DNA of 29,718 nt from a virus. Below are positions 4,343 through 29,333 of this stretch, piece by piece; position 1 is the first letter of the stretch; each line of letters begins with the position of its first letter. The translations under genes were made by a program, and so were the position numbers. The notes below the pieces were generated by a model. That model did no database searches and was not told the DNA's origin. It saw nothing but the letters and a program-made list of their open reading frames with translations. Location: the IMG/VR virus record IMGVR_UViG_3300009093_000105, positions 1-29,718 of that record; one strand, given 5' to 3'.

Positions 4343-4938
4343 TTCTGCCCTGGCAGCCATTCATTTTAGCCCTGGCAAATCGCCTGCGTGATGGCTTAGT
4401 TACGGAATTAACCGCTGACCCGCTGAACCCACGCGCGCCATCGTCCACCAGCAAATTCAAGGCTGCTATTTGGCATTTCTTTACCGATCATGGCCAGCAA
4501 GGTCGCCTATTGCTTTGGGCGCTTCCTTTTGCTCTCATGTTGATTTCTACATGCGGCTGGCCTGTCACTTGGTATGAAAATGCATTTTATTTTGGATGGC
4601 TTTGGGTTGCGGCCTTCGCTGGTGCATGTTGGGCTGATTGGGGCGAAGTCTACCTACCGCCATGGACCTTGCTGCGGTGCGCGCGGTTGGCATGGGAAGG
4701 CGTCAAATTTACGCTGCCAGCGGGGTTAATTGCCGCCGTTGGGGATTTTTATCCTCATAATATCTTTTTCGGTGCGCTGGTGGCGCTTAGTGGCGCTTTA
4801 ATCGTTCCAGCTTACATGATTGGTTGGACAGTTCCATCACACACTAAGGGCATAGAAAATGGAACCCCATTGGGTTCGGCTCTGTTTGGGTTTTTTCTGG
4901 GGTTGATCGGTTTTTTTGGTTTCATGTGCCGTAATTAG
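4339..4938 (+). CDS. Five-helix integral membrane protein, unknown function
   Basis: 199 residues coupled to the previous gene by ATGA. After a cytoplasmic-looking N-terminal region of about 50 residues, hydrophobic stretches fall at about 57-74, 79-98, 120-136, 140-164 and 178-197. It is the last gene of the rightward tail module, a place where lysis genes often sit, and I see no other holin, endolysin or spanin in the window. It is longer and has more helices than common holins, so a lysis role is only a guess; a superinfection or envelope function is as likely. Its last 102 bp lie antisense to the end of the GcrA-like gene. There is no recognisable intrinsic terminator between the two convergent genes. 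Confidence 0.65.
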   Translation: MILPWQPFILALANRLRDGLVTELTADPLNPRAPSSTSKFKAAIWHFFTDHGQQGRLLLWALPFALMLISTCGWPVTWYENAFYFGWLWVAAFAGACWADWGEVYLPPWTLLRCARLAWEGVKFTLPAGLIAAVGDFYPHNIFFGALVALSGALIVPAYMIGWTVPSHTKGIENGTPLGSALFGFFLGLIGFFGFMCRN

Positions 4939-5316
4939 ATGTTTTTGGCAATAACTGACCTCTTTTTCCTTATGCGCACCGCAAAAAAGACCATTCATAT
5001 ACGGCCAAAGGCAATTATTGGCGCCTGTATCCATTAAATTCATTGCTGTTTTGGGTGATTCGTCGAAATGTTGTGTTAAGATATCGTCCAAAGCCTTCTT
5101 ATTTGAATGTTTTGGCAAACTTTTTATTTTTTTGGGGGCTGTGGTTTGTTTCTTTTTCTGAAATTCCCAGCCTTCGCGATCACATTTTCCGATTACCGAT
5201 GCCCGTGTTCTTCCTATTTTTTCCCCTATTTCTCGTGCAGATGCACCTTTCGCCAACATTTTAATAACTATTTGTTTTTGCTTTTTTGTATATAAATCTT
5301 TCCTATTCGAACTCAT
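4837..5316 (-). CDS. GcrA-like transcription regulator (full-length form)
   Basis: 159 residues. The N-terminal helix-turn-helix (about 11-52, KGASAREIGEKIGRTRASVI then GKCDREGW) matches the GcrA pattern xGxSAxxIAxxL...RNAVIGKxxRxG. A basic linker follows (about 53-75). The C-terminal block CLWP (102-105), FCG (111-113) and YCQKH (122-126) matches the conserved GcrA CxWP...FCG...YCxxH region. GcrA of Caulobacter and relatives binds sigma70 and CcrM-methylated GANTC promoters to drive cell-cycle genes. A phage copy could redirect host polymerase, which is inference. ATG 5316 is preferred over GTG 5328 because GAGG lies six bases before it. It overlaps the upstream paralogue by 14 bp and the convergent membrane gene by 102 bp. 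It is the last gene of the leftward operon. Confidence 0.85.
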   Translation of the reverse strand: MSSNRKDLYTKKQKQIVIKMLAKGASAREIGEKIGRTRASVIGKCDREGWEFQKKKQTTAPKKIKSLPKHSNKKALDDILTQHFDESPKTAMNLMDTGANNCLWPYMNGLFCGAHKEKEVSYCQKHLITAHETKKTDQPQKKPKQSRTQWGSIFYALSV

Positions 5317-5545
5317 TATAAGCCTCACGATGAATGCTTTTTCTTCTGTTCGGATTTATATTTTTCTTAGATTTTGGGATATAAAATGATTTTCCTTTAA
5401 GTTGAAATCCTTCGCGATTACATTTCCCAATAATTGAATTACGACTTTTATTTAATATCTTTGCAATTTTGGCAGAACTTAACCCATTCTCCACCAGAAT
5501 TTTTAATTCATCTGTTATTTTTGAAGGCCACAAATCGTCTCGCAT
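5303..5545 (-). CDS. Short GcrA-like protein (DNA-binding domain only)
   Basis: 80 residues from ATG 5545; a TTG start at 5569 would add eight residues. The segment TDELKILVENGLSSAKIAKI, then LNKSRNSIIGKCNREGFQL, aligns with the N-terminal helix-turn-helix of its downstream neighbour; both share IGKC[D/N]REG[W/F]. A basic tail follows (KSKKNINPNRRKS). The Cys/His C-terminal block that contacts sigma70 in GcrA is absent. The protein may therefore occupy the same sites without recruiting polymerase, acting as a competitor or repressor; this is inference. Neither start has a good ribosome site, so it probably depends on coupling to the upstream gene, which it overlaps by 38 bp. Truncation from a longer ancestor is the alternative. 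Confidence 0.7.
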   Translation of the reverse strand: MRDDLWPSKITDELKILVENGLSSAKIAKILNKSRNSIIGKCNREGFQLKGKSFYIPKSKKNINPNRRKSIHREAYNEFE

Positions 5546-5726
5546 TTTTATAAGGTACTTGATTCGCAAGTGCAGCGGAAAGCCACAATTGCACTGATTC
5601 TGAATCTATCCAAGCATTAGGGTCTGCGCAAGAAAATTCTGCCTGTGAGTGAGTGATTCGGCTATCATGGATGATGAATGCTCCCGAAATTGAAAACACA
5701 ATCACAGCCATGCATATTAACTTCAT
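5508..5726 (-). CDS. Small exported protein, unknown
   Basis: 72 residues. The start overlaps the upstream stop (ATGA at 5723-5726), which fixes it firmly. The N-terminus is a typical signal sequence or membrane anchor: MK, then a hydrophobic core LICMAVIVFSISGAFII (3-19). The remainder (DSRITHSQAEFSCADPNAW and on) has a single Cys at about 33 and reads as a short periplasmic domain. There is no lipobox at the expected place. Sitting among early accessory genes, it may act at the inner membrane or in the periplasm during takeover. I recognise no family. Confidence 0.6.
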   Translation of the reverse strand: MKLICMAVIVFSISGAFIIHDSRITHSQAEFSCADPNAWIDSESVQLWLSAALANQVPYKNARRFVAFKNNR

Positions 5727-6070
5727 TGTGTAATCATCAATCTATTAATTACAGCCAACAATTCACCAATTGTTTCCCCAGCAATTTCATTAGGATCACG
5801 TGGGCTGCTAATATCTGGATATGGTTTGAATTCATTGCTTTCTATTTTCTTTTTGACAATCATCATATCATTAGCGACTTGATTTAGAGTTTGATTTACA
5901 AGCTGCTTATCTCTCATGATTAAAAAATCAGTGTATTTATTTTTATCAATTTCACCATCAATATTTTTTATATCCTCTAATGATACCAAAAATTTATCTG
6001 GTGAAAGTGGTGGAAGCATAAGGATATTTAAATTTGATGGATCATGTCCATTTATTTGATTTTCTGGCAT
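5723..6070 (-). CDS. Hypothetical accessory protein
   Basis: 115 residues, mostly acidic and predicted helical in the second half (QTLNQVANDMMIVKKKIESN). The start ATG 6070 has AGGAG seven bases upstream and overlaps the end of the preceding gene by 19 bp. The stop overlaps the next start (ATGA). There is no recognisable motif, no membrane segment and no Cys. It is most likely a soluble phage accessory protein; no function can be assigned. Confidence 0.6.
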   Translation of the reverse strand: MPENQINGHDPSNLNILMLPPLSPDKFLVSLEDIKNIDGEIDKNKYTDFLIMRDKQLVNQTLNQVANDMMIVKKKIESNEFKPYPDISSPRDPNEIAGETIGELLAVINRLMITQ

Positions 6071-6264
6071 TGGTTTTCTCCTTTGGAGGGTTTGGGTTTA
6101 TTAAAGTCTAATAATACGTCAATAATTGGATTTATAAGACGTTTTGCAGGACTATACCAGCGGCTATGCGGGTAGAAATATTTCAAGCTATCTTTTGTAA
6201 CATGATTCCAGCATCCTTGTTTAACACAGAATGACCTAAAAAGTTCATCAATCCAAAAAATCAT
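6052..6264 (-). CDS. Hypothetical small protein
   Basis: 70 residues from ATG 6264, chosen because the ATGA overlap with the preceding frame and a GAAGG site seven bases upstream both point there; in-frame starts at 6294 and 6327 lie deep in the upstream gene. The sequence is rich in aromatic and basic residues (MIFWIDELFRSFCVKQGCW ... YFYPHSRWYSPAKRL). No family is recognised. Two Cys at positions 13 and 18 form CVKQGC, not enough for a zinc site alone. Confidence 0.55.
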   Translation of the reverse strand: MIFWIDELFRSFCVKQGCWNHVTKDSLKYFYPHSRWYSPAKRLINPIIDVLLDFNKPKPSKGENQCQKIK

Positions 6265-6812
6265 GGATTCGCCTTCAAAGCTCGGATTTCCCATTGTAGA
6301 TGGGTTAAGACTGAACCTGTCACACATGGCGGGTTATTTTTTATTTGATCTAATCGCGCGTCTATTTTTAAGGCCGCTTCCTCAAGCGCGGCGTTACGTG
6401 CTTCCTGTCGGATTGCTTCATCACGCTGCTTGATTAAGTCTGCCATTTTATTATGGTAAATCTCGAAAGCCATGGCGTTTTCTGTCACATAGCCAACATC
6501 CCAGGTATCTAAACATTCATTAATTAAATGCCTTTCAAATTCCTCCGCAGGCATGGCCATCATCCCTATGGGGTTTGAACGTGGGATGGTTGCACGGGTG
6601 TTCCAGGCTTCAATAGCTTTAGCAGCCGATTTATCATAATAGATATCCGTCTCTGGTTTCACTACACAATTATCATTGGCGCATTCAACATTATAAACCG
6701 ATATTTCATCATCGCCTATTCCACCAATGGATAAATGCGGTTTTCCACCACAAAATGGTCAAGGCAACAATTCCGCCTGATAATCCGTGGGGTTTGGTGT
6801 GTGGGTGGTCAT
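6261..6812 (-). pseudogene. Lar-like zinc-ribbon gene interrupted by in-frame TGA
   Basis: Read from ATG 6812, which overlaps the upstream stop (ATGA at 6809-6812), the frame encodes MTTHTPNPTDYQAELLP, then TGA at 6759-6761, then PFCGGKPHLSIGG ... YNVECANDNCVVKPETD ... AKAIEAWNTRA. This is the Lar/restriction-alleviation zinc-ribbon layout LLPCPFCGG...C...C...AIEAWNTRA, with the TGA exactly where the first zinc-ligand Cys should be. Lar-type proteins ease host type I restriction; many phage relatives are untested. The frame continues another 100 residues as a helical tail (EEFERHLINECLDTW ... AALEEAALKIDARL). Without readthrough the product is 17 residues. A GTG at 6662 could restart translation of the C-terminal 133 residues, but it has no ribosome site. 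TGC to TGA is one base change, so a point mutation, a sequencing error or readthrough are all possible. Confidence 0.75.
6736..6761 (-). other. TGA-C codon with downstream 6-bp hairpin (candidate readthrough signal)
   Basis: On the - strand the in-frame TGA (6761-6759) is followed by C, the leakiest context known for UGA. Six bases later TGTGGT (6752-6747) can pair with ACCGCA (6741-6736) around the loop GGAAA, with one G-U wobble. Downstream hairpins can stimulate readthrough or selenocysteine insertion. Short hairpins are common by chance, so this is suggestive only. Confidence 0.3.
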
Positions 6813-7267
6813 GATGGGTTTTCCTCTGATTGCATAATATTTCTAAAATCGCGGCACCAATCATTATAAGCTGTGTGCATATTAACCATAAAATCAGCTT
6901 GCCATTTTTTGATTGTTTTTTGTTTTTCTAGTAAATAATATTCCGCATAAGTGCGGCGATTATCTACATGCGGCAAATATCCTCTTATAAATTCGCCAGT
7001 ATCAGTAAATCTTTTATTAGGAATTATATCATCTCCGCCTTTCTTATATTCAGCACAATTAATTTTATTAATCTCTATTTTAGCAGCATTTATAGCATCT
7101 TCTTCAGTATCAAATACTAGGTCAACCAATGATTTTCTAAATGAAAATGATTTCCCTGCCTTATTTAATCCAGATCGTTGGATGTTTATGGTATATTTCC
7201 CGGCGTCCTTACCAGCCACAAGACACCATGAGCGCACATTAAAACCATCAATGATAAATTCCCTCAT
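6809..7267 (-). CDS. Hypothetical phage protein, mixed alpha/beta
   Basis: 152 residues from ATG 7267, fixed by the ATGA overlap with the upstream DUF551-type gene and a G-rich site just before it. The first 65 residues look like a small beta-rich domain (EFIIDGFNVRSWCLVAGKDA, then KYTINIQRSG), followed by a helical C-terminal half (RRTYAEYYLLEKQKTIKKWQ). The stop overlaps the Lar-like gene's start. I recognise no family. The first domain, with DTEEDAINAAKIEINK after a short beta-meander, resembles other small phage proteins that occur beside Lar and DUF551 genes, but this is only an impression. Confidence 0.6.
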   Translation of the reverse strand: MREFIIDGFNVRSWCLVAGKDAGKYTINIQRSGLNKAGKSFSFRKSLVDLVFDTEEDAINAAKIEINKINCAEYKKGGDDIIPNKRFTDTGEFIRGYLPHVDNRRTYAEYYLLEKQKTIKKWQADFMVNMHTAYNDWCRDFRNIMQSEENPS

Positions 7268-8136
7268 CTCAATCCCCCAATCTGCGCCCTGTGGGCTTTC
7301 GGTAGCGGCATCCAATGCGTAGGTTCTAAATTATAGACAACAGGTTGTCCGCATTGTGCTGCCCAACATCCCATTTCAGGTGAAAAGTGTCCTTTATAAA
7401 CATCTTCACCATCCATCAATAAAATTGATTTTCCCTCTGGCGCGCTTTCAATCGGCAACCATTCATCCAATTCCGACGCATCAACAGGTTTTTGAGAAAA
7501 GCGAGCTTTGTATTTTGCGATTGCTGCGCGGGCTTTTTCGCCAGCAACTCTTGCCTCCCCACTCCTATAAACTGTTGCCATAGCTTCTAATTCGATTGCC
7601 GCATCTTCCAAAGCTCCCAGCAATTCCGACGCATCGGCTGGCGGTTGGGCTTTAGACTTCCAATGTAAATAACGAGCTATTAAATTGTGGAGAAGGTCAT
7701 CCGCAAAGGCTGCACAAGGAACGTCTGGCTCAAGTTCTTTTAATCGATACCGAAATATTCCGATAAACTCTTCATTGCATATGCAGTTCGTGCATTCGCA
7801 TTTACATTTTTCTTCTCCATCAGATTTCCCAGCCAAATGCGAGCGGGCGGCTTTGATTAAGGTATTGAGTGCGGAAAAAACAGGTAATGGTATTGTTGCA
7901 CCAGATGCGGCCCATCCATCCATGAAACCTTGCATATGTTTAATTGCTTCTTCAACCTCAGCACAATTTGGACTAGGTTGGGCGGCGCGGGTGAGGGCTG
8001 AAAATATTATCTCATTCACCTTAATTTGTTCATTCAAAGTACGATATGATTTAATACCCCATGGAGTTATACCCATTAATTCTTTAATACGCTGATAATC
8101 TTCCGGCTTCAACGCCTGTAAGTCTGGGGTTGTCAT
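7264..8136 (-). CDS. DUF551-domain protein with a five-Cys cluster
   Basis: 290 residues. The C-terminal 65 residues (EWLPIESAPEGKSILLMDGE ... THWMPLP) match the DUF551 pattern W.pi.s.P..g..vll.d...THWmPLP, common in phage accessory genes of unknown function and often near Lar genes. The middle carries the acidic/Ala-rich filler DASELLGALEDAAIELEAMA and ARAAIAKYKARF, and DASEL occurs twice. At 111-120 is KCKCECTNCICN: five Cys in ten residues, a probable metal site unlike the usual family members I know. ATG 8136 overlaps the stop of the 36-residue upstream peptide (ATGA), which supports it over an upstream start at 8190 that lacks a ribosome site. Confidence 0.7.
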   Translation of the reverse strand: MTTPDLQALKPEDYQRIKELMGITPWGIKSYRTLNEQIKVNEIIFSALTRAAQPSPNCAEVEEAIKHMQGFMDGWAASGATIPLPVFSALNTLIKAARSHLAGKSDGEEKCKCECTNCICNEEFIGIFRYRLKELEPDVPCAAFADDLLHNLIARYLHWKSKAQPPADASELLGALEDAAIELEAMATVYRSGEARVAGEKARAAIAKYKARFSQKPVDASELDEWLPIESAPEGKSILLMDGEDVYKGHFSPEMGCWAAQCGQPVVYNLEPTHWMPLPKAHRAQIGGLR

Positions 8137-8243
8137 GGTACGTAACTCAAATGAAGATGGGCGGTGCAGCTCTGCAATTCCCAAAGCCATATAGCTGTTA
8201 TGAAAGCATATAACATGATTTTTCCTAATTGCTTAATAGTCAT
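8133..8243 (-). CDS. 36-residue single-helix membrane peptide
   Basis: A short frame MTIKQLGKIMLYAFITAIWL, then WELQSCTAHLHLSYVP, fills the otherwise empty gap between two genes. Both ends are ATGA overlaps: its start with the upstream stop at 8240-8243, its stop with the start of the DUF551-type gene at 8133-8136. This double coupling is good evidence that it is translated. Residues about 7-22 form one hydrophobic helix. The function is unknown; a membrane-acting phage peptide or a coupling leader are both possible. Confidence 0.6.
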   Translation of the reverse strand: MTIKQLGKIMLYAFITAIWLWELQSCTAHLHLSYVP

Positions 8244-14655: not shown

Positions 14656-14709
14656 ATGCGATCTCCTGATAGGTTAAGGTTTATAGGATGATTAACCATC
14701 CATACAAAC

Positions 14710-14760
14710 ATTATATGCGCATATATAAATCAGATGCAACAACTATTTTCAATCTTTTTT
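14710..14760 (-). promoter_or_regulatory. Predicted sigma70-type promoter with the same A-rich upstream element
   Basis: On the - strand: -35 TTGCAT (14739-14734), an 18-bp spacer, a perfect -10 TATAAT (14715-14710). Three bases before the -35 box lies CTATTTTCAATCTTTTTT (+ strand, 14743-14760), differing at one of 18 positions from the element at 9922-9939. It would drive the recombination genes, starting with ATG 14655. The 132-bp gap 14656-14787 has no gene; I see no intrinsic terminator in it, so early transcripts from further upstream probably read through. Confidence 0.55.
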
Positions 14761-14787
14761 AAATTATTTATAGTTTACAATCTATCA

Positions 14788-15174
14788 CTATTCGCCTAAC
14801 AACCGAATCACATCCTCGGGGCACCGCACAACCCCAGCAATTCCCCCTGATTTCTTGACTTGTTCAATGAAATTTAACTGTTCGGGGCTAGGTCGGCCCG
14901 TTGCCGTCTTCACTTCCATAGCCAAAAATTTACCATTCTTAGTCCAGCCTATTAAATCGCTTGCGCCATCGCACAGCAGTCCGGCTTGAATTCTTGCCAG
15001 TGTTTTAATGGCACGATAAAAACCCATGACGCCGCCGTTTTTGACAGCATCAATTAATGTCTGAACTATTGTGAGCGCGTAAAACATACCGCGAACATTT
15101 TTAAAAACGCGCGCGCCGCATAAACTTGCCTGCTTCATGCAAGCATGGACTATTTCAGTTTCTTGACGTGCCAT
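14788..15174 (-). CDS. VRR-NUC domain nuclease
   Basis: 128 residues from ATG 15174 (GGGGGA five bases upstream). It matches the stand-alone phage VRR-NUC fold: ETEIVHACMKQA (5-16), FKNVRGM (24-30), CDGASDLIGW (68-77), FLAMEVKT (83-90), GRPSPEQLNFIEQV (93-106), GIAGVVRCPEDVIRLL (111-126). D73, E87 and K89 form the PD-(D/E)XK active site. Some phage VRR-NUC proteins cleave structured DNA such as Holliday junctions; others are untested. Together with the SF2 helicase two genes upstream it forms a likely DNA-processing pair. It overlaps the zinc-ribbon gene by 25 bp. Confidence 0.85.
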   Translation of the reverse strand: MARQETEIVHACMKQASLCGARVFKNVRGMFYALTIVQTLIDAVKNGGVMGFYRAIKTLARIQAGLLCDGASDLIGWTKNGKFLAMEVKTATGRPSPEQLNFIEQVKKSGGIAGVVRCPEDVIRLLGE

Positions 15175-15341
15175 GTTATCCCCCGGCAAGTGCCGCAATA
15201 GGTTTCTAATGTGAGAATATATTTAATAAGCCTATCAAGCTTTGATGATAATTCTCCTTTACCATCTACTGCTATTGTTTCGACAAATAATTTTTGACAT
15301 TTACCGCAACAAAATTCTACGCCTCTACATAATATGTTCAT
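15150..15341 (-). CDS. Small zinc-ribbon protein, Com-like
   Basis: 63 residues. Two CxxC pairs, C12-C15 (CCGKC) and C49-C52 (YCGTC), around a 33-residue middle make a zinc ribbon; C5 and C11 are extra Cys. Its size and layout recall the Mu Com translational activator family, which binds mRNA, but the spacing is longer than I would expect, so the name is only a suggestion. ATG 15341 follows GGGGGATTAAGCA and overlaps the upstream gene by 17 bp. Confidence 0.6.
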   Translation of the reverse strand: MNILCRGVEFCCGKCQKLFVETIAVDGKGELSSKLDRLIKYILTLETYCGTCRGITWHVKKLK

Positions 15342-15543
15342 TGCTTAATCCCCCAAGCCATTCGATGAAACCAGATTTTAATTTTACCACACGCTTGCAT
15401 TTTACCCAAACGCCGCCTTCAACTCGAACGATCTTAACATCATCCTGACTAAGCGCATGGTATTTGATAAATTGCTTTGCAAATGAAATCATGTTTTCTT
15501 CAGTATCGCCAGCGATGGCGAATATAACTGTTTCAGGTGTCAT
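15325..15543 (-). CDS. Hypothetical small protein
   Basis: 72 residues from ATG 15543, fixed by the ATGA overlap with the helicase stop. MTPETVIFAIAGDTEENMIS, then FAKQFIKYHALSQDD and VKIVRVEGGVWVKCKR suggest a compact alpha/beta domain with a central acidic helix. No family is recognised. A function coupled to the helicase is suggested only by position. Confidence 0.6.
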   Translation of the reverse strand: MTPETVIFAIAGDTEENMISFAKQFIKYHALSQDDVKIVRVEGGVWVKCKRVVKLKSGFIEWLGGLSNEHIM

Positions 15544-16937
15544 TGTGATATTCCTTTTATCTGTGCCATTTTTAAAACCCATCCTTCTTTATAGCCACGC
15601 TCTCGCTGTATGCGGCGCAATTCATCCATGGTTTTCACACCGACAACTTCCATGCGCGCAGCTTTCTTCTCCTGCTGTATCTGAATTTCCTGCAATTCAC
15701 CTTCGCGCTGTTCAATCTCGCGTTCGGTGCGCGCACGAACTAAACCGCACGATGGACATGACATCTGGCTAGGCGGATAAACAAAGAAACATCCCGCGCA
15801 CTGGATAACGGGCGCTGCGCGGTCTGCACTGCCGCGCGTGGATTTCATGCGGTTTTCCAGCGTCCAGTCGATATCGGCGCATGGCAATCCATGTTCATTA
15901 AAATTATTTGCGTGGTCAAAGAAAAACGCTGGCTGCTCACCATAGCGCAGGCCGCGCCCGTTTTTCTGCCTTTGCTTTGCCAATGATTTCGTGGGCTGGC
16001 AATCAGTGATGCCCTCAATTCTCACACCCTTAACACCGCTGGCCGTGGCAAGATCATATCCAAAGGTCAGCAATTCAGCGTTGCATAACTGTAACAATTC
16101 CCGATTGGCGTAGGCTTTCGCGATGCGCTTGCGTTCATCCATGGGCGTTTCACCATCCATATGCATCGCCGGAATTCCAGCGTCACGATACGCCTGCGCG
16201 AGCAATTGGCTGTGCTTAACACTGACAGCAAACGTTACGCCCAGGCGCCCGTATGCGTGTTTTTTATAGTGGCCTACAGCATCCCCAATCAAAACCCTGT
16301 CCTGCTCCATGCGTTCGGCAAGCTGGCTCTGCACGAAATCGCCTGACTGCGACACTGCAACGCGCGAAAGGTCTGGCGCGCTCGGCGCGAAGGCCCGGTA
16401 ATCAGCCAGGCGTTTCATATTTATCAATTCACGCACCCTGGGGCCGCAGACCATATCCTGATAATAACAACCCAACCCGCGCCCATCTAGGCGCCACGGC
16501 GTTGCTGACAATCCAATAATCAGCGCAGAATGGTTTTTCAGCCAAGCAATGATAGCATCAAGCCCAGCGCCGCCGTAATGCGTTTCATCAATCAGCGCCA
16601 GTTTAGGCGGCGTCATCCGATCTAGGCGTGACTTAATCGTATCCAGGCTGCATATGTGTGCCTTCGCATACGGGTTCAGGCTGCGGCCGGCCGCTATGAA
16701 ACTGTGCGGGATATTAAATTCATTAAACGTGGCCGACATCTGATCTATCAAATCTTTGCGCGGTACACAAAACCAAATGCTGTTATCTTTTGCCAATGTC
16801 TGCTGCGCTAATTTTGAACCTATGACAGATTTTCCGCTTCCTGTTGCGCCTTGCAGTAAAATATATTTATTGCCGCGGCGCGCGCTCGCCGTCACTTTGT
16901 CGATACTGTCTTGCTGATCTGGAAGTAAGGTTATCAT
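15540..16937 (-). CDS. Superfamily 2 DEAD/DEAH-type helicase with C-terminal zinc ribbon
   Basis: 465 residues. Motifs in order: Q-like PDQQDSID (6-13), Walker A GATGSGKS (30-37), Ia CVPRKDLIDQM (57-67), Walker B IDETH (116-120), III LSATP (143-147), motif IV region VTFAVSVKHSQ, V-VI region ITDCQPTKS and QRQKNGRGLR (322-331). After the second RecA fold comes C380/C383 and C394/C397, a CxxC...CxxC zinc ribbon, then a coiled-coil tail. The likely role is ATP-driven DNA unwinding or remodelling in replication or recombination, as for UvsW/RadD-like phage proteins. RadD proteins have this same helicase plus zinc ribbon layout. It ends in ATGA with the next gene. Confidence 0.9.
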   Translation of the reverse strand: MITLLPDQQDSIDKVTASARRGNKYILLQGATGSGKSVIGSKLAQQTLAKDNSIWFCVPRKDLIDQMSATFNEFNIPHSFIAAGRSLNPYAKAHICSLDTIKSRLDRMTPPKLALIDETHYGGAGLDAIIAWLKNHSALIIGLSATPWRLDGRGLGCYYQDMVCGPRVRELINMKRLADYRAFAPSAPDLSRVAVSQSGDFVQSQLAERMEQDRVLIGDAVGHYKKHAYGRLGVTFAVSVKHSQLLAQAYRDAGIPAMHMDGETPMDERKRIAKAYANRELLQLCNAELLTFGYDLATASGVKGVRIEGITDCQPTKSLAKQRQKNGRGLRYGEQPAFFFDHANNFNEHGLPCADIDWTLENRMKSTRGSADRAAPVIQCAGCFFVYPPSQMSCPSCGLVRARTEREIEQREGELQEIQIQQEKKAARMEVVGVKTMDELRRIQRERGYKEGWVLKMAQIKGISQ

Positions 16938-16943
16938 AGATTT

Positions 16944-17291
16944 TTATTTTTCTTCCGGTGATTTTAAATAAGAATTAATGCTAAATCTCCCATTAATGTG
17001 TCCATTAAAATTAAACTCAAAACATAATGATAATTCTTTATTAATTATTCTGCATGCCTGGTATTCAATACTCCTAACCCTTTCTTGAGAAAGTCCGTAT
17101 TTTTTTGTTGTTTCATTAAACATTTTATCTCCTATTTGTTTTAATGTTTGTTTATTAACAATCCTTCCTGTTATTACCATTAATTGTCTTTCGTTTAATT
17201 TGTCTTCGCATATTTCCAAAAACATATCACGATAATTTTCCCAAGCCCAAAGGAAATTTTTTGAAAAGTTGGATGATTTTATGTTTTTCAT
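16944..17291 (-). CDS. Sigma70 region-4-like protein
   Basis: 115 residues. Residues 32-87 (LNERQLMVITGRIV, QTLKQIGDKMF, KKYGLSQERVRSIEYQACRI) follow the pattern of sigma70 region 4: an L.eRe..il..R helix, an IG..l turn and the S.ERVRQIE..A...L recognition helix. There is no region 2 or 3, so it is not a full sigma factor. It could bind the RNA polymerase beta flap or -35 DNA as a co-regulator or anti-sigma-like factor, like phage-encoded region-4 mimics. The start overlaps the SF1 helicase stop (ATGA). It is AT-rich relative to its neighbours. The C-terminal 28 residues (FEFNFNGHINGRFSINSYLK) are unlike sigma factors. Confidence 0.7.
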   Translation of the reverse strand: MKNIKSSNFSKNFLWAWENYRDMFLEICEDKLNERQLMVITGRIVNKQTLKQIGDKMFNETTKKYGLSQERVRSIEYQACRIINKELSLCFEFNFNGHINGRFSINSYLKSPEEK

Positions 17292-18472
17292 CTAGGCTGC
17301 ACCAGAATGCATTTTTTCTTGGCACGGGTCAAACTTGTATAAAGCCAGCGTTGCGCTTCAACGCCTCGCCCGATCGGCTGATTATAAATCACCACTTTAT
17401 CAAATTCGCTTCCCTGCGATTTATGCGCAGTGATAGCATAGCCAAAATCGAAACGGTCAAGTGTGCGGTGATAAGGATTATAGCCGTCATATTTATCACC
17501 TGTGCCGTTGATATCACCAGCGTAAACATTCAAGCCAGCGTTATCATCGAAGTCCAAAATATAATGCTCGCTTCGTTTAGGGCGCGCATCAGATGCCGCA
17601 TAGCCGATCATGCCATTAAACAAACCATTGACCGGGCTATTTTTTAGGCAAATCATTTTCTCGCCTGCACGTGGCAACCCTTCATGTCCTGCCAAATCTC
17701 TAAATCGTTTATTCCATTCCATGCGGGTTTTATTCATGCCAACGATTACTTGATCGGCATCGCTGTAAATCTCTGCGCCAAAATTCTGCTGTGGCCCGTA
17801 TTCAAATTCACCTTCAGAGCAAAAAGAAATCGTTTCACCTTCACGCACCATTTTCGAATAACGGATAATCGGGCTGTCCAACGCCTGCCTGTGAATTTCA
17901 GTGATAAAATAATCAGGCTGCAAGCTGCATTCGCCTTTAACGGGCGGTAACTGGAACGGGTCGCCGATATATAAAACCTTTTTTGCTACCAATTCTATAT
18001 GCTTAATTAATTCCTCTGACAGCATAGAATATTCATCAACAATTACCAGCTTCGCGTCAGCAAGTTTGCTTTGCATATTCAAATCATATTTTGGCTTGCG
18101 ATAATTGGCACGCATTTCTGCAACTTGTTCACTGATACGATTTGCCGTCGCCGTATCACCCATTTTTAGCATTCGGTGCATTTCTTCATTCAGAATTTTC
18201 ATGGCCTCACGGTCATGGTCTGTCAGAGAATATAAATAGCTGTGTATCGTTCCAGCGTTCATGCATTCCTTTTCGCGCAGGACGTTCGCCGCCTTACCTG
18301 TGTAGGCGCAAAATATCGTGCCGTTATGGCCTATTTCATCAGCTATTTGTTTCGCCAGTGTGGTTTTACCAGCACCCGCATATCCGGCTAACACAAAACG
18401 TTTTTCTTTTGTTTTATGCCATGCCATTACGCCGTCGAACGCTTCAATCTGCTGCGGACTTAACTGTGCCAT
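17288..18472 (-). CDS. SF1B helicase, RecD2/Dda-like
   Basis: 394 residues. Motif I GYAGAGKTT (30-38), II VDEYSM (145-150), III GDPFQLPPV (170-178), a later motif YAITAHKSQGSEFD and VI YTSLTRAKKKCIL near the C-terminus. This is the layout of the Dda/RecD2 group of 5'-to-3' DNA helicases, used by phages at replication forks. ATG 18472 has GGAG eight bases upstream and overlaps the end of the primase gene by 13 bp. Length is typical of the short phage forms. Confidence 0.9.
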   Translation of the reverse strand: MAQLSPQQIEAFDGVMAWHKTKEKRFVLAGYAGAGKTTLAKQIADEIGHNGTIFCAYTGKAANVLREKECMNAGTIHSYLYSLTDHDREAMKILNEEMHRMLKMGDTATANRISEQVAEMRANYRKPKYDLNMQSKLADAKLVIVDEYSMLSEELIKHIELVAKKVLYIGDPFQLPPVKGECSLQPDYFITEIHRQALDSPIIRYSKMVREGETISFCSEGEFEYGPQQNFGAEIYSDADQVIVGMNKTRMEWNKRFRDLAGHEGLPRAGEKMICLKNSPVNGLFNGMIGYAASDARPKRSEHYILDFDDNAGLNVYAGDINGTGDKYDGYNPYHRTLDRFDFGYAITAHKSQGSEFDKVVIYNQPIGRGVEAQRWLYTSLTRAKKKCILVQPR

Positions 18473-21126
18473 TTATCTAACTCCATTTCCTGTTGTGGTA
18501 TTTCTGGCATATCTTTCGGCGCATTAGGGTCTATGCCAAAATGATAATAAGGCACGCAACTGCTGCGTGATTTATATCCTGGTGAAAAATCAACAGAGTC
18601 ACACGCCCTTGCACCTTCTAAATCTTTAAGCGTTCTTCCCCATGATGACCAAGGCGTTTCGCGCAGCATATATTGTAGTTTGGGTGATTGATTGGCAATC
18701 CAGATGCCGTCTTTTTTCGGCCAAATACCATGCTCGCGTAATGCTTTTAGCACGGGTTCTTTTTCTCTTTTTTGTAACATGCTCCCAATAGTATCTTCAA
18801 TCATCCTGCCGTTATCTTCATAACGAATATTTCTTGTCGCGATTGTCATAATTAATTTTTCAGGGTCAGCTTGTTCAGCTATTGCGGTATGCATTTTCCA
18901 ATCGTGCTTTTTAATCCACTCAACAGCTTTTTCATGGCTGATAGTGCGCGTGGTAGTGAGCAAATATAATCCCGCCAACATCGCACCGATCTGATCTGCG
19001 GCGCGGCGATCGCATAAAACTTCACTGGCCGCATCAGTGAAAATATGGATATTGGCGATTAATGTTTCGATGTTCTGCAAGGTGCGCATTAACATACCTG
19101 CCGCATATTTTTTATTAATCAACGATCGGATTTCTTTTTTAACAGTCTTGTATCTTTCATCTGCGCCTTGGCTGGTGTCGCGTTTCAATCCCAGCATTGA
19201 AATTCTGCTTTCGTCAGCACGGTGTTTAATCGCGGGGTTGATTCCTGAAAAACAAAATGCTGACCGTACCATGTATTCAATCGCATCGCCTCCTGACGTC
19301 CCCTTAATAATTTTACCCCCACTGGACGCGCGGCGCGCCAATGACAGCACCGCTTCAATAATTCCCTGATCGCGCAGGCTCTCGCTTTCTGCTTCATCAT
19401 AAATTACTGGACGGCCACCATATCCCAAGGTTTGCCGAACGCCCGCCTCTGTTGTTCCGCCTTCAATTTGCAGCGCCATCTCGCCCATCATCGGCATGAT
19501 GATATCTTTCAGCACAGTGGTTTTCCCGGACTGGCTTTGCCCAGTCACCCAAATATGCGGGCGCCACGGTAGTGCCGCGCAAACAGGAGCAATGACGATC
19601 CAGCCTGCAAGTAATTCGCCAGATAGATTATTATCCCATGATAACATTGCGCATAATTCGCGCAATTTAGATGCTTGCAAATTACTTAATGCCTCACCTG
19701 TTATTCTAATTTCGGTCTGTGATGGATATACATATTCGCTTTTAAATCTGTATAGACTATATTCTTCCCCATTAATCGCCAAATGATTACCGCAATGCAT
19801 CACGTAACGGCCATTATCTTCCCAGACTCCTATGCCGCGAACATTCTGTAATTTAAACACCCCTTTTTTCTCACACATTTGTATTAAATGGTTGCAAGCG
19901 AATTCAGCTATTTTTCTATTTCCTGTTTTCTCATCATACGGATGACGCCAATATTCCAAAGGTGCTAATCTGAAAAGAGTTGTCATGCTTCCAAGATTGC
20001 TTGCTGTAAGCGCGATAATCTGCCCACTTCCCCTAGATAGAAAATAATAATTCCCAGCATCATGCCCCAATATTGTGAAAGGAACATCGTCAACTGGCTT
20101 TTCATCGTAAATATCGTAAACCCGTTCACCATCCTCGGATTGGTCAGAAAAATTCTGACCACTTTCACTTAATTCGGAAAACTCGGACTTTTCCGGTTTT
20201 TCGGGTTGGCGCGGTTTTTCCGCAATTACCGCCTTTTCCAGCCGTTCTTTGACCGCTTCCAGCCCCATTTTGACATGAACATCGTTAAAATCGACTGATT
20301 TCCCATCATTATCGACGATTTCAGGCCAAATCACGTGCGCGCCGATTTTCACTGCGGCCTGCTTTGCCTTTTCAATCCCAATGTTCGGTTCGGTTTCGCA
20401 ATCATTATCGGCTGCAATCACAATCCGCGCGTCCGGGTATTTCGTGCGCATGGTCAGGGCGACATGCTCCAAATTACCAGCGCTGAATGCCACGATTACT
20501 GGCCAGCCTGTGGCAGCGCGCACGCTCGCGCCGGTGGCATAGCCTTCGCAAATAGCGATCGTGGATTTATCATCATCAGACTTGGCGATCGCCGCATAGC
20601 CGCCCTTAATTCGGCCACCCTTCATAAACCGCTTTTCGCCGTTTTCCGCGATGAATTGAACCGATGCCACTGCGCTATCAATATAAACAGGAACCATGAT
20701 AATCGTTCCCATCATTTTCACGCCCAGCAATTTAATCTGCTTCCGCTTCGAATAGGCGTTTTCGGTCGGCGCCGTGCCGCGGTTCCACGTCATCAAGGCG
20801 CGCATGGCAGCCTCTTTTTCCGCCGCGGCGCGTGCCACCTCGCGGGCTGTTTCTTCAGCTTTTAGGCGCTTCCGAATTTCGGTGCGTTCATTCGGCGTGA
20901 GGCTGCGCGATAGTTTACTCGTCCATTTCAGCAGTTCGCCCGTGCGGTAATTCTTCACCCAGCCGCACCCAAATTCAGGCGTAATTTTTAGCTGATATGC
21001 CCCGTTTCTTTTACGGTTTCCGTCCACAATTCGGTAATTGTGTATCAGATCATCTGCCTTTATCGTCGTTTTATCGGCAGGCGAACAGCCATTTTCATCC
21101 AAAAACGCTAGAAATTCTTCAAGCAT
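18460..21126 (-). CDS. TOPRIM primase fused to DUF927 helicase-like ATPase
   Basis: 888 residues. N-terminal zinc-less primase-associated region (about 30-160), then TOPRIM with the catalytic Glu in ICEGYATGAS (E194) and DxD in IAADNDCE (D240, D242), then SVDFNDVH (277-284). A charged linker (about 300-340) leads to the DUF927 part: Walker A TGQSQSGKTT (528-537), Walker B PVIYDEAE (573-580) and downstream ASSGGKIIKGTSGGDAIEY. Proteins of this design serve as primase-helicase at phage and plasmid origins. No stand-alone DnaB or DNA polymerase gene is in the window, so the phage probably relies on host polymerase. There is only a short gap (21127-21155) to the RHH gene. Confidence 0.9.
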   Translation of the reverse strand: MLEEFLAFLDENGCSPADKTTIKADDLIHNYRIVDGNRKRNGAYQLKITPEFGCGWVKNYRTGELLKWTSKLSRSLTPNERTEIRKRLKAEETAREVARAAAEKEAAMRALMTWNRGTAPTENAYSKRKQIKLLGVKMMGTIIMVPVYIDSAVASVQFIAENGEKRFMKGGRIKGGYAAIAKSDDDKSTIAICEGYATGASVRAATGWPVIVAFSAGNLEHVALTMRTKYPDARIVIAADNDCETEPNIGIEKAKQAAVKIGAHVIWPEIVDNDGKSVDFNDVHVKMGLEAVKERLEKAVIAEKPRQPEKPEKSEFSELSESGQNFSDQSEDGERVYDIYDEKPVDDVPFTILGHDAGNYYFLSRGSGQIIALTASNLGSMTTLFRLAPLEYWRHPYDEKTGNRKIAEFACNHLIQMCEKKGVFKLQNVRGIGVWEDNGRYVMHCGNHLAINGEEYSLYRFKSEYVYPSQTEIRITGEALSNLQASKLRELCAMLSWDNNLSGELLAGWIVIAPVCAALPWRPHIWVTGQSQSGKTTVLKDIIMPMMGEMALQIEGGTTEAGVRQTLGYGGRPVIYDEAESESLRDQGIIEAVLSLARRASSGGKIIKGTSGGDAIEYMVRSAFCFSGINPAIKHRADESRISMLGLKRDTSQGADERYKTVKKEIRSLINKKYAAGMLMRTLQNIETLIANIHIFTDAASEVLCDRRAADQIGAMLAGLYLLTTTRTISHEKAVEWIKKHDWKMHTAIAEQADPEKLIMTIATRNIRYEDNGRMIEDTIGSMLQKREKEPVLKALREHGIWPKKDGIWIANQSPKLQYMLRETPWSSWGRTLKDLEGARACDSVDFSPGYKSRSSCVPYYHFGIDPNAPKDMPEIPQQEMELDKWHS

Positions 21127-21155
21127 CGGTTTTCTCCCTTATTTTCTGTCAGATT

Positions 21156-21359
21156 TTAGATAGGGGGGGTATTTTCTTCAACCTTTTCAAGGTATTCCAT
21201 TAAAGCCGTCTCAATAAATTTCGTCACGCTCATATTGCGCATCTTGCAAATGTGCTTGATAATCGTTTTCATTTCGTGTGGCATATAAAAGTTTGTCGGC
21301 ACCACACCTCGGCTTTTTTTCATATCTTCTAGCCTCTGGTCAATGGTTTTTTTGGTCAT
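21156..21359 (-). CDS. Ribbon-helix-helix DNA-binding protein, probable autoregulator
   Basis: 67 residues. VVPTNFYMPHEMKTIIKHIC then RNMSVTKFIETALMEYLEKV has the beta-strand/helix/helix order of RHH (Arc/CopG-type) proteins: a strand at about 20-25, helix A about 27-40, the turn MS, helix B about 44-58. RHH dimers bind tandem short sites near their own promoter. ATG 21359 has AGGAGG about ten bases upstream. It is the first leftward gene, next to a control region holding several ACTAC/GTAGT motifs, which makes it a good candidate for repressing the early operon and itself. Confidence 0.75.
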   Translation of the reverse strand: MTKKTIDQRLEDMKKSRGVVPTNFYMPHEMKTIIKHICKMRNMSVTKFIETALMEYLEKVEENTPPI

Positions 21360-21428
21360 TTTCGAATCCCCTCCTTTTGGGTTAATGTATGTTTCAACGT
21401 TTCTACATTTTAGTCAACCCAAAATAAT

Positions 21429-21508
21429 TACCCCGCTAAAAATAGTTTTTACTACCACATGTTTTGCCAAAAAACCGCAGAATTCTGCCATTACGACAGT
21501 ACCCCGCT
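21429..21508 (+). repeat. 9-bp direct repeat TACCCCGCT
   Basis: TACCCCGCT occurs at 21429-21437 and 21500-21508, 71 bp apart, in otherwise AT-rich DNA. Both copies are followed within about 20 bases by an ACTACC or CTACAC motif. They may be protein-binding sites of the early promoter or origin. Confidence 0.4.
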
Positions 21509-21534
21509 TTTTCTACACGACACATATATGCATT

Positions 21535-21563
21535 ATTATAATGATCTAGTATCTCATAGTCAT
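21535..21563 (-). promoter_or_regulatory. Possible leftward early promoter
   Basis: On the - strand ATGACT (21563-21558), a 17-bp spacer and a perfect -10 TATAAT (21540-21535). It would give a leader of about 170 bases to the RHH gene. AT-rich sequence makes chance matches likely, and the upstream A-rich element of the other two promoters is missing. Confidence 0.25.
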
Positions 21564-21658
21564 AATTCTCTCTCTATTATATATTATATATTATTATTAA
21601 TAGTAAGTAGTATAGTAGTAATAGGTCCAAAAACCCAACAAATCACTGGCTTTCATGC

Positions 21659-21686
21659 AACTACATAAATACTACACCACGTAGTT
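21659..21686. repeat. Inverted repeat AACTAC...GTAGTT
   Basis: AACTAC (21659-21664) and GTAGTT (21681-21686) are perfect inverted arms. Inside, ACTAC (21671-21675) and GTAGT (21681-21685) form a tighter palindrome with the 5-base centre ACCAC. It lies about 75 bases before the first rightward gene and could be an RHH operator. Confidence 0.4.
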
Positions 21687-21758
21687 ATAAATATTTTATC
21701 AAGGGGGATTGACGAAAAAAAGAATCCTCGGCACTCTGGCCTCAGGAGAACCGCTCAC

Positions 21759-22223
21759 ATGGACACGCAAACGAATTCAGAAACCCTGCTTGAAAAAGCC
21801 GAACATGAGGGTGAAAAAATCATTCACGCCGCCGAACATTTCGCAGAGGAAATTATCCATGACGTTGAAAATCTTTTCGAACATGACCACAGCGACGCTG
21901 GCCCAACTCCGACAAGCGACGGAACTGCACAGCCAGACGCGCTTGCTGTTGATGAGGGTCAAGAACCCGGCCCTATGGAAGCACATGGGCAAGCCGACGC
22001 GGCAGCAACTCCAGTCCCCCCCGCAGAGCAGCCATCCGCAGCCGTAATGGCTGCTGCTTTACCCCCGGCTGATGACCACGGCTTGGTAGACCCCCAGGGA
22101 AACGTAGCGAGCGTTGAGAGTGCCTCTGTGCCGGCTGCTGACCCAAACGCTGCTCCGGCTCCCCTCGTGGCCACGGTTGGTTTTGCGGAACCTGTTGCTG
22201 GTGCGGAGCAGCCCGTGGGATAG
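21759..22223 (+). CDS. Acidic Ala/Pro-rich protein before terminase
   Basis: 154 residues. The first 45 form an amphipathic, His-rich helix (EKAEHEGEKIIHAAEHFAEE, then IIHDVENLFEHDHSD). From about 50 on it is a low-complexity Ala/Pro/Glu/Asp tail with no predicted fold. GC content is clearly above that of the neighbouring early genes. ATG 21759 has AGGAG about ten bases upstream. A second frame from TTG 21709 lies in a different register and looks like a shadow. Three bases separate it from the terminase small subunit gene. A DNA-packaging accessory or scaffold-like role is a guess. Confidence 0.6.
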   Translation: MDTQTNSETLLEKAEHEGEKIIHAAEHFAEEIIHDVENLFEHDHSDAGPTPTSDGTAQPDALAVDEGQEPGPMEAHGQADAAATPVPPAEQPSAAVMAAALPPADDHGLVDPQGNVASVESASVPAADPNAAPAPLVATVGFAEPVAGAEQPVG

Positions 22224-22226
22224 GTC

Positions 22227-22724
22227 ATGCCGCTGAATTATAAACAGCGGGCGTTTATCACAGAATTTCTAATTGATAAAAGCCCTAAGGAAGCTGCGAT
22301 ACGCGCAGGTTATTCTAAGAAATCAGCTTCGAATATCGGGAAGAATTTACTTGAACACCCTGAAATAAACGCTGCAATTGAAGTTGCGTTCAAAGAAGCG
22401 GCGAAGAATGCAGGTGTAACAGCCGAATACGTGATTAAAACAATAGTTGAAACTATAGAGCGTTGTAGGCAGGTAAGACCAGTTAGAGATAGAAAAGGCG
22501 AATTAGTTTATGTAGAAACGTCTGACGGGAAAATAGCACCTGCGTATACATTCGATGCACCAAGTATTTTGAAAGGAACAGAATTACTTGGTAAATCACT
22601 TGCGATGTTCACGGAAAAAACAATCAGCCACATGACAGTTAGACCAGACTATAAGGCTGTAGAGGATATGACAGACAAGGAAATCGAAGAAAGATTTAAT
22701 CAAATCGGTTCATCAATAAAATGA
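22227..22724 (+). CDS. terS: Terminase small subunit
   Basis: 165 residues. NYKQRAFITEFLIDKSPKEA, then AIRAGYSKKSASNIGKNLLE and HPEINAAIEVAFKEAAK match the terminase_2 small-subunit pattern (a DNA-binding N-terminal helix-turn-helix with the AGYS motif, then an oligomerisation region). It binds the packaging-initiation site in phage DNA and regulates the large subunit. The stop overlaps the terL start (ATGA), the standard arrangement. Confidence 0.9.
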   Translation: MPLNYKQRAFITEFLIDKSPKEAAIRAGYSKKSASNIGKNLLEHPEINAAIEVAFKEAAKNAGVTAEYVIKTIVETIERCRQVRPVRDRKGELVYVETSDGKIAPAYTFDAPSILKGTELLGKSLAMFTEKTISHMTVRPDYKAVEDMTDKEIEERFNQIGSSIK

Positions 22725-24328
22725 AATGGGATCCAGATTACCGTTCGATTAAAATAAAGCGGTTTCAGTTAGATGAATATCTCAGCAAAGACCCTATCGC
22801 CGCTGCCGTGGCGATGAATTATTATCGCACACACCCCATAGAATGGATTGAGGATTGGTGCGTGACGTTCGACCCGCGGTTGGTCGAAAATCGGTTGATG
22901 CCGTTTATCCTGTTCCAGCGGCAGAAAGAATTCGTGCAATTCCTGCTAGAGTGCCTCGAAGATCGCGAAAGCGGCCTGATTGAAAAAGCGCGCGACATCG
23001 GCGCATCGTGGATATGCTGCGCCTTCAGTGTGTGGCTCTGGTTATTTCACCCCGGCGTTGCCATCGGCTGGGGTTCGCGCAAGGAAGAATACGTTGACGA
23101 TAAGGGCAACCCGAAAGCTATTTTTCCAAAAATGCGGCAGATCATTGGGCGCCTCCCCGCCTGGATGCAGCCCAAAGATTTTAATATGAATATTCATGCC
23201 ACCTACATGAAAATCGCTAATCCTGAAAATGGCAGCTTCATTATGGGTGAGGCTGGTGACAACATTGGACGCGGCGGACGGACGACAATATTTTTCAAAG
23301 ATGAAAGCGCGCACTATGAACGGCCTGAGCAGATTGAAGCCGCGCTTGGTGATAACACAGACGTGCAAATTGATATCAGCAGCGTGAACGGCGTAGGTAA
23401 CGTTTTTCACAAACGCCGAATGGCTGGGCAGATATGGTATCCATTCGGTGATCGTATTGCAAAAGGCAGGACACGCGTTTTTATTTTCGAATGGCGCGAT
23501 CATCCAAATAAAACGCAGGCATGGTATGACAACCGCAGACAGAAAGCAGAGGCCGAAGGTCTGCTGCATATCTTCGCGCAGGAAGTCGATCGGAATTATA
23601 GCGCGGCGACGTTCGGGATCATCATTCCGCAAGAGTGGGTTGAGGCTTCAGTTGATGCGCACATACGGCTTGGCATACCCGATGAAGGAGAAAAAACAGC
23701 AGGCCAAGATATCGCTGATGGCGGCGGTGATAAAAACGCGCTTGCCATGCGTTACGGTATTACATTGCGGTATTGCGATCATTGGAGTGGTGAAGCTGGT
23801 GACGCGGCGCGCATCGCTATCCCGCTTGCGAATAAATTTGGTTGTAACGAATTGTATTATGATAGCGTGGCTGTTGGGGTTGGTTTTCGCGTTGAAACAA
23901 ATACGATGATAAAAGAACCGCAGTGGAATAAACGCCTGCGTGTGAAACCATGGAATGGTGCAGGAGAAGTTTTACAGCCAGACCAGCCGACCATTCGCGG
24001 CGATCGCATGTCACCTCTCAATAAGGATCAATGGGAAAATCTTAAAGCGCAGTCATGGTTTAGATTACGTTCACGTTTTTGGAAAACCTATTGCGCTGTC
24101 AATCGCGGCAGCGCGTTTAAACCTGATGATTTAATATCACTCGATTCGCGTATTCCACGGTTGCATGAATTAAAAGCTGAATTATCACAGGCCATCAAAA
24201 AGACTTCAAAGCGTGGAAAAACAATGGTGGACAAGAACCCTGCGGGCACAGCCAGCCCTAACCTTGCCGATTCAGTCGTTATCTGCTACAATCCAACGCG
24301 AAAGGTATCGGGGTTTGATATAGTTTAA
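22721..24328 (+). CDS. terL: Terminase large subunit
   Basis: 535 residues. N-terminal ATPase: FQRQKEFVQFL adenine-binding region, a Walker A variant KARDIGAS (89-96), Walker B TTIFFKDESAHY (188-199) with catalytic Glu. C-terminal RNase-H-like nuclease: GQDIADGGGDKNAL (328-341, D330 and D333), YDSVAVG, and SPNLADSVVI near the end. It powers DNA translocation into the procapsid and cuts concatemers. Normal length; no sign of an intein or frameshift. Confidence 0.95.
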   Translation: MKWDPDYRSIKIKRFQLDEYLSKDPIAAAVAMNYYRTHPIEWIEDWCVTFDPRLVENRLMPFILFQRQKEFVQFLLECLEDRESGLIEKARDIGASWICCAFSVWLWLFHPGVAIGWGSRKEEYVDDKGNPKAIFPKMRQIIGRLPAWMQPKDFNMNIHATYMKIANPENGSFIMGEAGDNIGRGGRTTIFFKDESAHYERPEQIEAALGDNTDVQIDISSVNGVGNVFHKRRMAGQIWYPFGDRIAKGRTRVFIFEWRDHPNKTQAWYDNRRQKAEAEGLLHIFAQEVDRNYSAATFGIIIPQEWVEASVDAHIRLGIPDEGEKTAGQDIADGGGDKNALAMRYGITLRYCDHWSGEAGDAARIAIPLANKFGCNELYYDSVAVGVGFRVETNTMIKEPQWNKRLRVKPWNGAGEVLQPDQPTIRGDRMSPLNKDQWENLKAQSWFRLRSRFWKTYCAVNRGSAFKPDDLISLDSRIPRLHELKAELSQAIKKTSKRGKTMVDKNPAGTASPNLADSVVICYNPTRKVSGFDIV

Positions 24329-24330
24329 AT

Positions 24331-25710
24331 ATGGCAAAAAAGAAAAACGCTCCCATTCTAAAAAGCATAGTGAATTCACTACAGGACTTTTCACAAAGTT
24401 TAATTCCGATGTTTGGTACGCCTGGGGGCAATATTAATGAATTATCTAGCACTGATACGCTTTATTTTAATTTGCGCTGGTATCTTATTTCAAACTTCCG
24501 GCAGTTGCTTGCGGAATTGTATGTTGAACATGGGATTGTACAGACACTTGTTGACCAGCCGATTGAAGATGCATTTCGCGCTGGATTTGAAATTAAAACA
24601 GCACAGCTTAACGATGATGAAATATCTCAGCTTCAGATTTATTTAGAGCGCCATGGTGTGATTAGTGCCGTTAAAATGGCGCTGAAATGGGCGCGCCTAT
24701 TTGGTGGTGGCGCCGTTTTACTGATTAATAATGAAGACCCACGATTACCCTTTGATATTGATAGTGTTGATATCGATACGCCGCTTGAATTTCGTGCGGT
24801 GGATATGTGGGAACTGTACGCCGACCAGATGAATATTCAGGGCGACATCACCGTGGGCGGTGCACTTGGTGCGGATAATGCGAAATTTTATAATTATTAC
24901 GGTAAGATGGTTGACCACACGCGCGTTTATAAAGTGGTTGGTAAAGAAGCGCCTAGTTTTATCCGGCCACGCCTGCGCGGTTGGGGTATGTCTGAAATTG
25001 AAAAGGTTGTTCGATCGCTAAATCAGTACATGCGAAATCAGGACGTGGTGTTCGCGTTATTGAATGAGGCGAAAGTTGATGTCTATCGCCTGCAAGATTT
25101 CAATGAAGCGTTAATGACGGATGATGGTTCTGCTAGTACGCAGAAGCGTTTGCATTTTGTAAATTTGATTAAGAGTTATCTAAACGGTATCGTCATGGAT
25201 AAAAACGACGAATACGAACAGAAACAGATTACGTTCGCTGGTCTTGCGGAAGTATTGGTTCAGATACGCCAAGGCATAGCCGCTGATTTGAAAATGCCAA
25301 TGACGAAACTGTTTGGTATTAGCAGCGCAGGATTTAACAGCGGTGAAGATGATATCGAAAACTATAATGCCATGCTGGAAGGCGAACGCGCGAAAAGTAA
25401 GTTCATCGTGCTTGATATGATCGAGATATCCTGTCGTAAACTGTTTGGCCTAGCGCCCGATGATTTGAATATTGAATTTAATCCGCTGCGCGTTTTGGGT
25501 GCAGAAGAAGAAGAAAAAGTTAAAGATTATCAGTTTAACCGCGTTATGAGTTCGTACAACAGCGGTCTAATTCAATCAGAAGAAACCAAGCGCGCGATTA
25601 ATTATGATAGCCTCTTGGGAATTGAAATTGATGAAAAGAAACCAGCGGTAGCCCCCATGGGTTCTGAGAATTTAGTTGGCACAACTGGAAACGTGGATAA
25701 ACCAGAATGA
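24331..25710 (+). CDS. Portal protein, DUF1073/Phage_portal_3 type
   Basis: 459 residues. NLRWYLISNFRQLLAELYVE, VQTLVDQPIEDAFRAGFEI, ALKWARLFGGGAVLLIN, SEIEKVVRSLNQYMRNQDVV and KMPMTKLFGISSAGFNSGED are core segments of this portal family. Twelve copies would form the DNA gateway at the capsid vertex. This family is sometimes fused to, or named after, the anti-CBASS Acb1 phosphoesterase; I looked for its paired H-x-T/S motifs and found none, so this is portal only. Two bases after the terL stop; it ends in ATGA with the next gene. Confidence 0.9.
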   Translation: MAKKKNAPILKSIVNSLQDFSQSLIPMFGTPGGNINELSSTDTLYFNLRWYLISNFRQLLAELYVEHGIVQTLVDQPIEDAFRAGFEIKTAQLNDDEISQLQIYLERHGVISAVKMALKWARLFGGGAVLLINNEDPRLPFDIDSVDIDTPLEFRAVDMWELYADQMNIQGDITVGGALGADNAKFYNYYGKMVDHTRVYKVVGKEAPSFIRPRLRGWGMSEIEKVVRSLNQYMRNQDVVFALLNEAKVDVYRLQDFNEALMTDDGSASTQKRLHFVNLIKSYLNGIVMDKNDEYEQKQITFAGLAEVLVQIRQGIAADLKMPMTKLFGISSAGFNSGEDDIENYNAMLEGERAKSKFIVLDMIEISCRKLFGLAPDDLNIEFNPLRVLGAEEEEKVKDYQFNRVMSSYNSGLIQSEETKRAINYDSLLGIEIDEKKPAVAPMGSENLVGTTGNVDKPE

Positions 25711-26084
25711 TCGTACCCGGCACACTCAGACAGCCTTTGATTATTTTCATCGGCGCAACTTTCAATCCTTCGATTACGTGGAGCAATGGGATTTTGGGAA
25801 ACCCTGTTGATTTGACAGGTTATGATGCAGTGATGGAAATTCGGAATACGCTTGCTGACCCAGAGCCGTTATTAACGCTTAGTCGGTGGAACGGTGGGAT
25901 ATTAATCCCCTACCCGCTTACGGGCGTGATGAACCTTTTTCTAACGGCTGCACAGACCGCATGCCTATCACCAACCGTTGAGGCACCGGCTGTTTTTGAT
26001 CTTCAAGTGACGGCGCCTTCGAATGTTCAAACTGATTATTTACTACAAGGACAGATTCAGATACAACAGATGGTAACCCGATAA
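25707..26084 (+). CDS. Beta-sandwich phage structural protein
   Basis: 125 residues. Pattern FNPSITWSNGILGNPVDLTG, then YDAVMEIRNTLADPEPLLTL, FDLQVTAPSN and QTDYLLQGQIQIQQMVTR follows a common small phage protein resembling the N-terminal domain of BppU-type baseplate adaptors (W..g.PvDLTGy.a.mqIR). It may link fibres to the virion. ATGA overlap with the portal stop. Function from analogy only. Confidence 0.65.
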   Translation: MIVPGTLRQPLIIFIGATFNPSITWSNGILGNPVDLTGYDAVMEIRNTLADPEPLLTLSRWNGGILIPYPLTGVMNLFLTAAQTACLSPTVEAPAVFDLQVTAPSNVQTDYLLQGQIQIQQMVTR

Positions 26085-26425: not shown

Positions 26426-26437
26426 GGATAATATAAA

Positions 26438-27727: not shown

Positions 27728-27739
27728 AGGGGATAAATT

Positions 27740-29332: not shown

Positions 29333-29333
29333 A

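Follow-up and report, generated by a model that had tools for sequence, protein, structure and literature searches.

An in-frame TGA at the first zinc-ligand cysteine codon of a phage Lar-type gene is probably a nonsense substitution or a base error

Nonsense alleles and in-frame stops in phage and prophage genes present a single stop codon in an otherwise open and conserved-looking frame, and in a survey of in-frame stops 'Mobilome' was the most frequent category (PMC7918605). Bacterial selenoprotein genes also carry an in-frame TGA at the position of a Cys, followed by a hairpin, the selenocysteine insertion sequence (SECIS), the apical loop of which lies 16-37 nt after the UGA (PMC10778597). 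In this study, a Lar-type gene with TGA at the codon of its first zinc-ligand Cys is compared with both. The gene lies in a soil phage, IMG/VR virus record IMGVR_UViG_3300009093_000105, whose 29,718 bases were analysed as a whole and are called the window here. At a probability of about 90%, the TGA reflects either a nonsense substitution that arose recently or an error in the consensus base, the Lar-family gene of this tailed phage being otherwise intact.

On the minus strand, the frame from ATG 6812 reads MTTHTPNPTDYQAELLP, TGA (6761-6759) and then PFCGGKPHL...VECANDNC...AIEAWNTRA, and the 165 sense codons past the in-frame TGA stay open to the terminating TGA at 6263-6261. An earlier reading of the letters alone (the sequence-only reading) had described this frame, its TGA at the first Cys and the 165 open codons, and our reading of the frame agrees with it. 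The features of the gene are as follows.

6261..6812, minus strand: Lar-type gene broken by a single in-frame TGA; 183 codons counting the TGA codon, plus the stop
6762..6812, minus strand: 17-codon leader MTTHTPNPTDYQAELLP, the sole product expected if the TGA terminates
6759..6761, minus strand: in-frame TGA where relatives have the first zinc-ligand Cys (in PCPFCGG), as judged from the frame reading and the relatives' codons
6264..6758, minus strand: 165-codon open part past the TGA, with the Lar domain in its first 56 residues and a C-terminal extension
6736..6752, minus strand: 6-bp stem with a 5-base loop, a by-product of the CGGKPH codons as judged by folding and synonymous recoding

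The part past the TGA matched Pfam PF14354 (Lar) with 32.4 bits against a cut-off of 28.6, and the PF14354 search that read through the stop gave 37.5 bits with '1 TGA' inside the match. The same part matched PHROG 599, Lar-like restriction alleviation, whereas TIGR03655, scored from after the stop, reached 27.5 bits and stayed below its cut-off of 39.6. Codon usage past the TGA was phage-like in the Lar frame only, which scored 0.205 nats per codon while the five other frames ranged from -0.06 to 0.09. Because of the PF14354 match and this codon usage, the open frame is a real and recently intact gene. With the Lar family (PF14354, PHROG 599, TIGR03655) the gene shares PFCGGKP, the second Cys pair, the AWNTR motif, a score above the Pfam cut-off and a location in the early region of the phage, but it differs in the first ligand codon, in the low TIGR03655 score and in a C-terminal extension of ~110 residues.

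Since relatives carry TGC or TGT at this codon (LLPCPFCGGKP in L065-L068, APCPFCGG in L009), the TGA stands in place of the first zinc-ligand Cys. The other three of the four ligand Cys are kept, with C-x4-C as the second pair. Given a PF14354 score above the cut-off and no first Cys, this is therefore a Lar-family gene by descent, but the protein as sequenced is not an intact Lar. Either the gene lost its integrity only recently, or it is intact still and the base call is wrong.

The TGA is the single lesion in the 183 codons, and since the frame shows no other damage, the loss is a recent one. We propose that a single-base nonsense change (or a base error) struck the first zinc-ligand Cys codon. 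Ribosomes starting at ATG 6812 would then terminate at the TGA after 17 residues, and functional Lar-like protein would be absent save for trace misreading, mostly to Trp and still without the zinc ligand. Coupling to the overlapping next gene (ATG 6264) would be weakened, and translation of that gene may fall. Among 4,941 possible single-base changes, the existing TGA excluded, 82 (~1.7%) create a stop in the Lar frame. At the difference rate between contigs of this virus (~3e-5 per base, below), a stray stop would be expected ~0.02 times in one 30-kb window, which is rare for one window and ordinary across a scan of many.

Some points weigh against a substitution or error. It is mildly coincidental that the TGA hits a zinc-ligand Cys codon exactly when 82 other single changes would give a stop; Cys-to-Sec conversions commonly show UxxC arrangements (PMC1794560); and the base at the TGA site rests on a single contig. 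A query with the terminase found three near-identical IMG/VR contigs and two distant ones, none of them with the Lar locus. The three are of the same virus (100%, 99.99% and 100% identity over 13,356, 8,676 and 8,458 bases) and cover positions 14674-29718 of the window only, the TGA site lying outside. Their sole mismatch is at window position 28191 (G versus T in L003), that is, 1 in 30,490 aligned bases or ~3e-5 per base; that contigs of this virus do differ by single bases is a point in favour of a substitution or error. Since L003 continues past the right end of the window, the window is a fragment.

How TGA is used elsewhere in the phage involves the two genes that flank the Lar-type gene.

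6809..7315, minus strand: upstream gene, which stops in TGA followed by CCA and overlaps the Lar ATG (ATGA)
6052..6264, minus strand: downstream gene, whose probable start, ATG 6264, overlaps the Lar stop (ATGA); the choice of start is inferred

TGA terminates 12 of the 39 other called genes in the window, in accordance with the earlier statement that it works as a stop elsewhere in this phage. The upstream gene stops in TGACCA, identical to the six bases that begin with the in-frame TGA, and its stop overlaps ATG 6812 as ATGA, with a Shine-Dalgarno-like AGAGGA read from the sequence 5' of this ATG. Because 12 of 39 genes end in TGA and the upstream gene ends in TGACCA, reassignment of TGA across the phage is excluded and the in-frame TGA is not set apart by its six-base context. 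As TGA counted as a stop when the open reading frames (ORFs) were called, the lack of other in-frame TGAs is weak evidence, and the point is carried by the ATGA gene overlaps.

The hairpin proposed earlier was recovered by folding: the stem UGUGGU/ACCGCA with the loop GGAAA starts six bases past the TGA. Its proposed role as a special decoding feature was not supported. When the peptide past the TGA was recoded 1,000 times using the phage's own codon usage, the fold was as stable as the real one or more so in 22% of the synonymous recodings over 9 codons, 25% over 12, 51% over 16 and 37% over 20, and about one third of them had a stem of at least 6 bp. L068, a normal Lar gene with TGT at the first-Cys codon, has a stronger stem of 8 bp at the same place. 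In the folds of 50 and 101 nt the hairpin lies outside the minimum-energy structure, and in folds of some other lengths it lies inside. Thus, the hairpin follows from the codons for PFCGGKP and is no more than chance given the peptide.

We looked for recurrence of the TGA with a degenerate exact-match scan for P-TGA/TGG-PFCGG over 2.9 million IMG/VR viral contigs. All 53 matches were read, and not one proved to be a further Lar gene with TGA at the first-Cys codon. The sole TGA case that looked like a zinc ribbon (L052/L063) was rejected, as it overlaps a different gene in another frame. In L014 (843-1000), a Lar-like gene has TGG at the first-Cys codon, followed directly by a frameshift, so either this Lar gene too is damaged or the contig is of low quality. 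For Cys-bearing Lar genes, a pattern more restrictive than that for TGA found 4, so that the TGA count lacks a matched denominator. In 399 Bacillota genomes there were 7 Lar matches over the cut-off, none with a stop inside. Conservation of the TGA in at least two homologues, which is expected of a selenoprotein, was seen neither in the IMG/VR scan nor among the Bacillota matches.

Searches for closer relatives of the Lar-type protein found no homologue closer than ~41-44% over part of its length. For the part past the stop, no phage homologue was found at 1e-5; a loose cut-off gave a Nostoc phage match (41% over 68 residues, E 1e-3) and others that were weaker. No IMG/VR homologue of this part was found either, though one query, which carried one extra residue, adds little weight to this. 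The sequence surrounding the codon, matched exactly but with the third base left free, occurred in no other IMG/VR contig, a genome scan with an alignment (A1) gave one Lachnospiraceae relative, and solved structures gave no match. No relatives of the gene at 7264-8190, two genes upstream, were found, and the record of the RecT relative L008 was without a Lar match.

Functional leaky readthrough, in which near-cognate decoding of UGA-C yields a small and regulated amount of full-length Lar-like protein, is unlikely. A C does follow the TGA, as had been noted from the sequence, misreading of UGA reaches up to ~12% in E. coli (PMC9481147), and conserved frames past in-frame stops are reportedly widespread among bacteria (PMC7918605). 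However, such misreading inserts mainly Trp, which does not restore the zinc ligand, and UGA readthrough is just 0.04-0.08% in two Pseudomonas species (PMC9481147). Termination of the upstream gene at the identical TGACCA and a hairpin accounted for by the peptide also argue against readthrough. Unlike the surveyed in-frame stops (PMC7918605), the TGA here is in one sequence only, and the IMG/VR scan found no second sequence that keeps it.

It is hardly credible that selenocysteine is inserted at the UGA to make a UxxC zinc-ribbon selenoprotein. The TGA aligns with Cys as a Sec/Cys pair in the UxxC arrangement, and the first base of the hairpin loop is G. Zinc ribbons are, however, structural and not redox sites. 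As compared with bacterial selenoprotein genes, the GGAAA loop lies 12 nt past the UGA, outside the SECIS range of 16-37 nt (PMC10778597), the hairpin is within the codon-level null, and folding of the first 51 nt, counted from the UGA, is no different from the synonymous null. A second, weak hairpin of 4 bp lies ~31 nt past the UGA, within that range, but the fold containing it is at the median of the null. An Rfam search of the window gave no match to a selenocysteine element and nothing relevant. FdhA was the sole selenoprotein in Sec-decoding alphaproteobacteria in a 2006 survey (PMC1794560), and GcrA-like genes of the phage, described below, suggest an alphaproteobacterial host. Cases known from a single sequence are regarded in the field as candidates only, with sequencing error possible (PMC1088965).

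A host or phage suppressor tRNA that reads UGA as Cys would restore the zinc ligand, but it deserves next to no credence, since no tRNA or tmRNA gene was found in the window and TGA is the routine stop of 12 genes, the upstream gene among them, and ends the Lar-type gene itself. Even taken jointly, reading of the UGA as Cys or selenocysteine through a special host tRNA, so that the Lar-type zinc ribbon would be made only in hosts or states having that tRNA, is very improbable. Reassignment of TGA under genetic code 4 or 25 is ruled out by the 12 of 39 genes that end in it and by the ATGA overlaps.

Tailed-phage genes are found across the window, including those for a baseplate wedge, terminase large subunit, portal, primase, helicases, a RecT-like protein and an exonuclease VIII-like protein. 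Two overlapping ORFs on the minus strand, 4837-5328 and 5303-5569, both match GcrA (PF07750) with 43.0 and 31.8 bits, the second over the N-terminal DNA-binding part only. GcrA is a regulator of alphaproteobacteria. Because the phage bears these two GcrA-like genes, its host is probably an alphaproteobacterium. On the same strand, 14788-15198 is a VRR-NUC domain/Holliday-junction-resolvase-like gene with a TTG start.

In conclusion, the Lar-type gene shows no specific recoding signal, standard use of TGA as a stop and a coding frame that is intact but for one TGA. A fresh nonsense change or error, the simplest option in the sequence-only reading, is best supported, while its other options, readthrough and selenocysteine, gained no positive support from the stop context, the hairpin and its spacing, or the search for a second Lar gene with TGA. 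If recoding were true, the phage would make an anti-restriction protein that is recoded or contains selenium. As it stands, the sequence is that of an accessory phage gene, broken (or misread) in an ordinary way and of a kind already known. For the Lar family, the conserved PFCGGKP motif tends to form a hairpin right past the first Cys codon, and a TGA at that codon therefore mimics a recoding signal.
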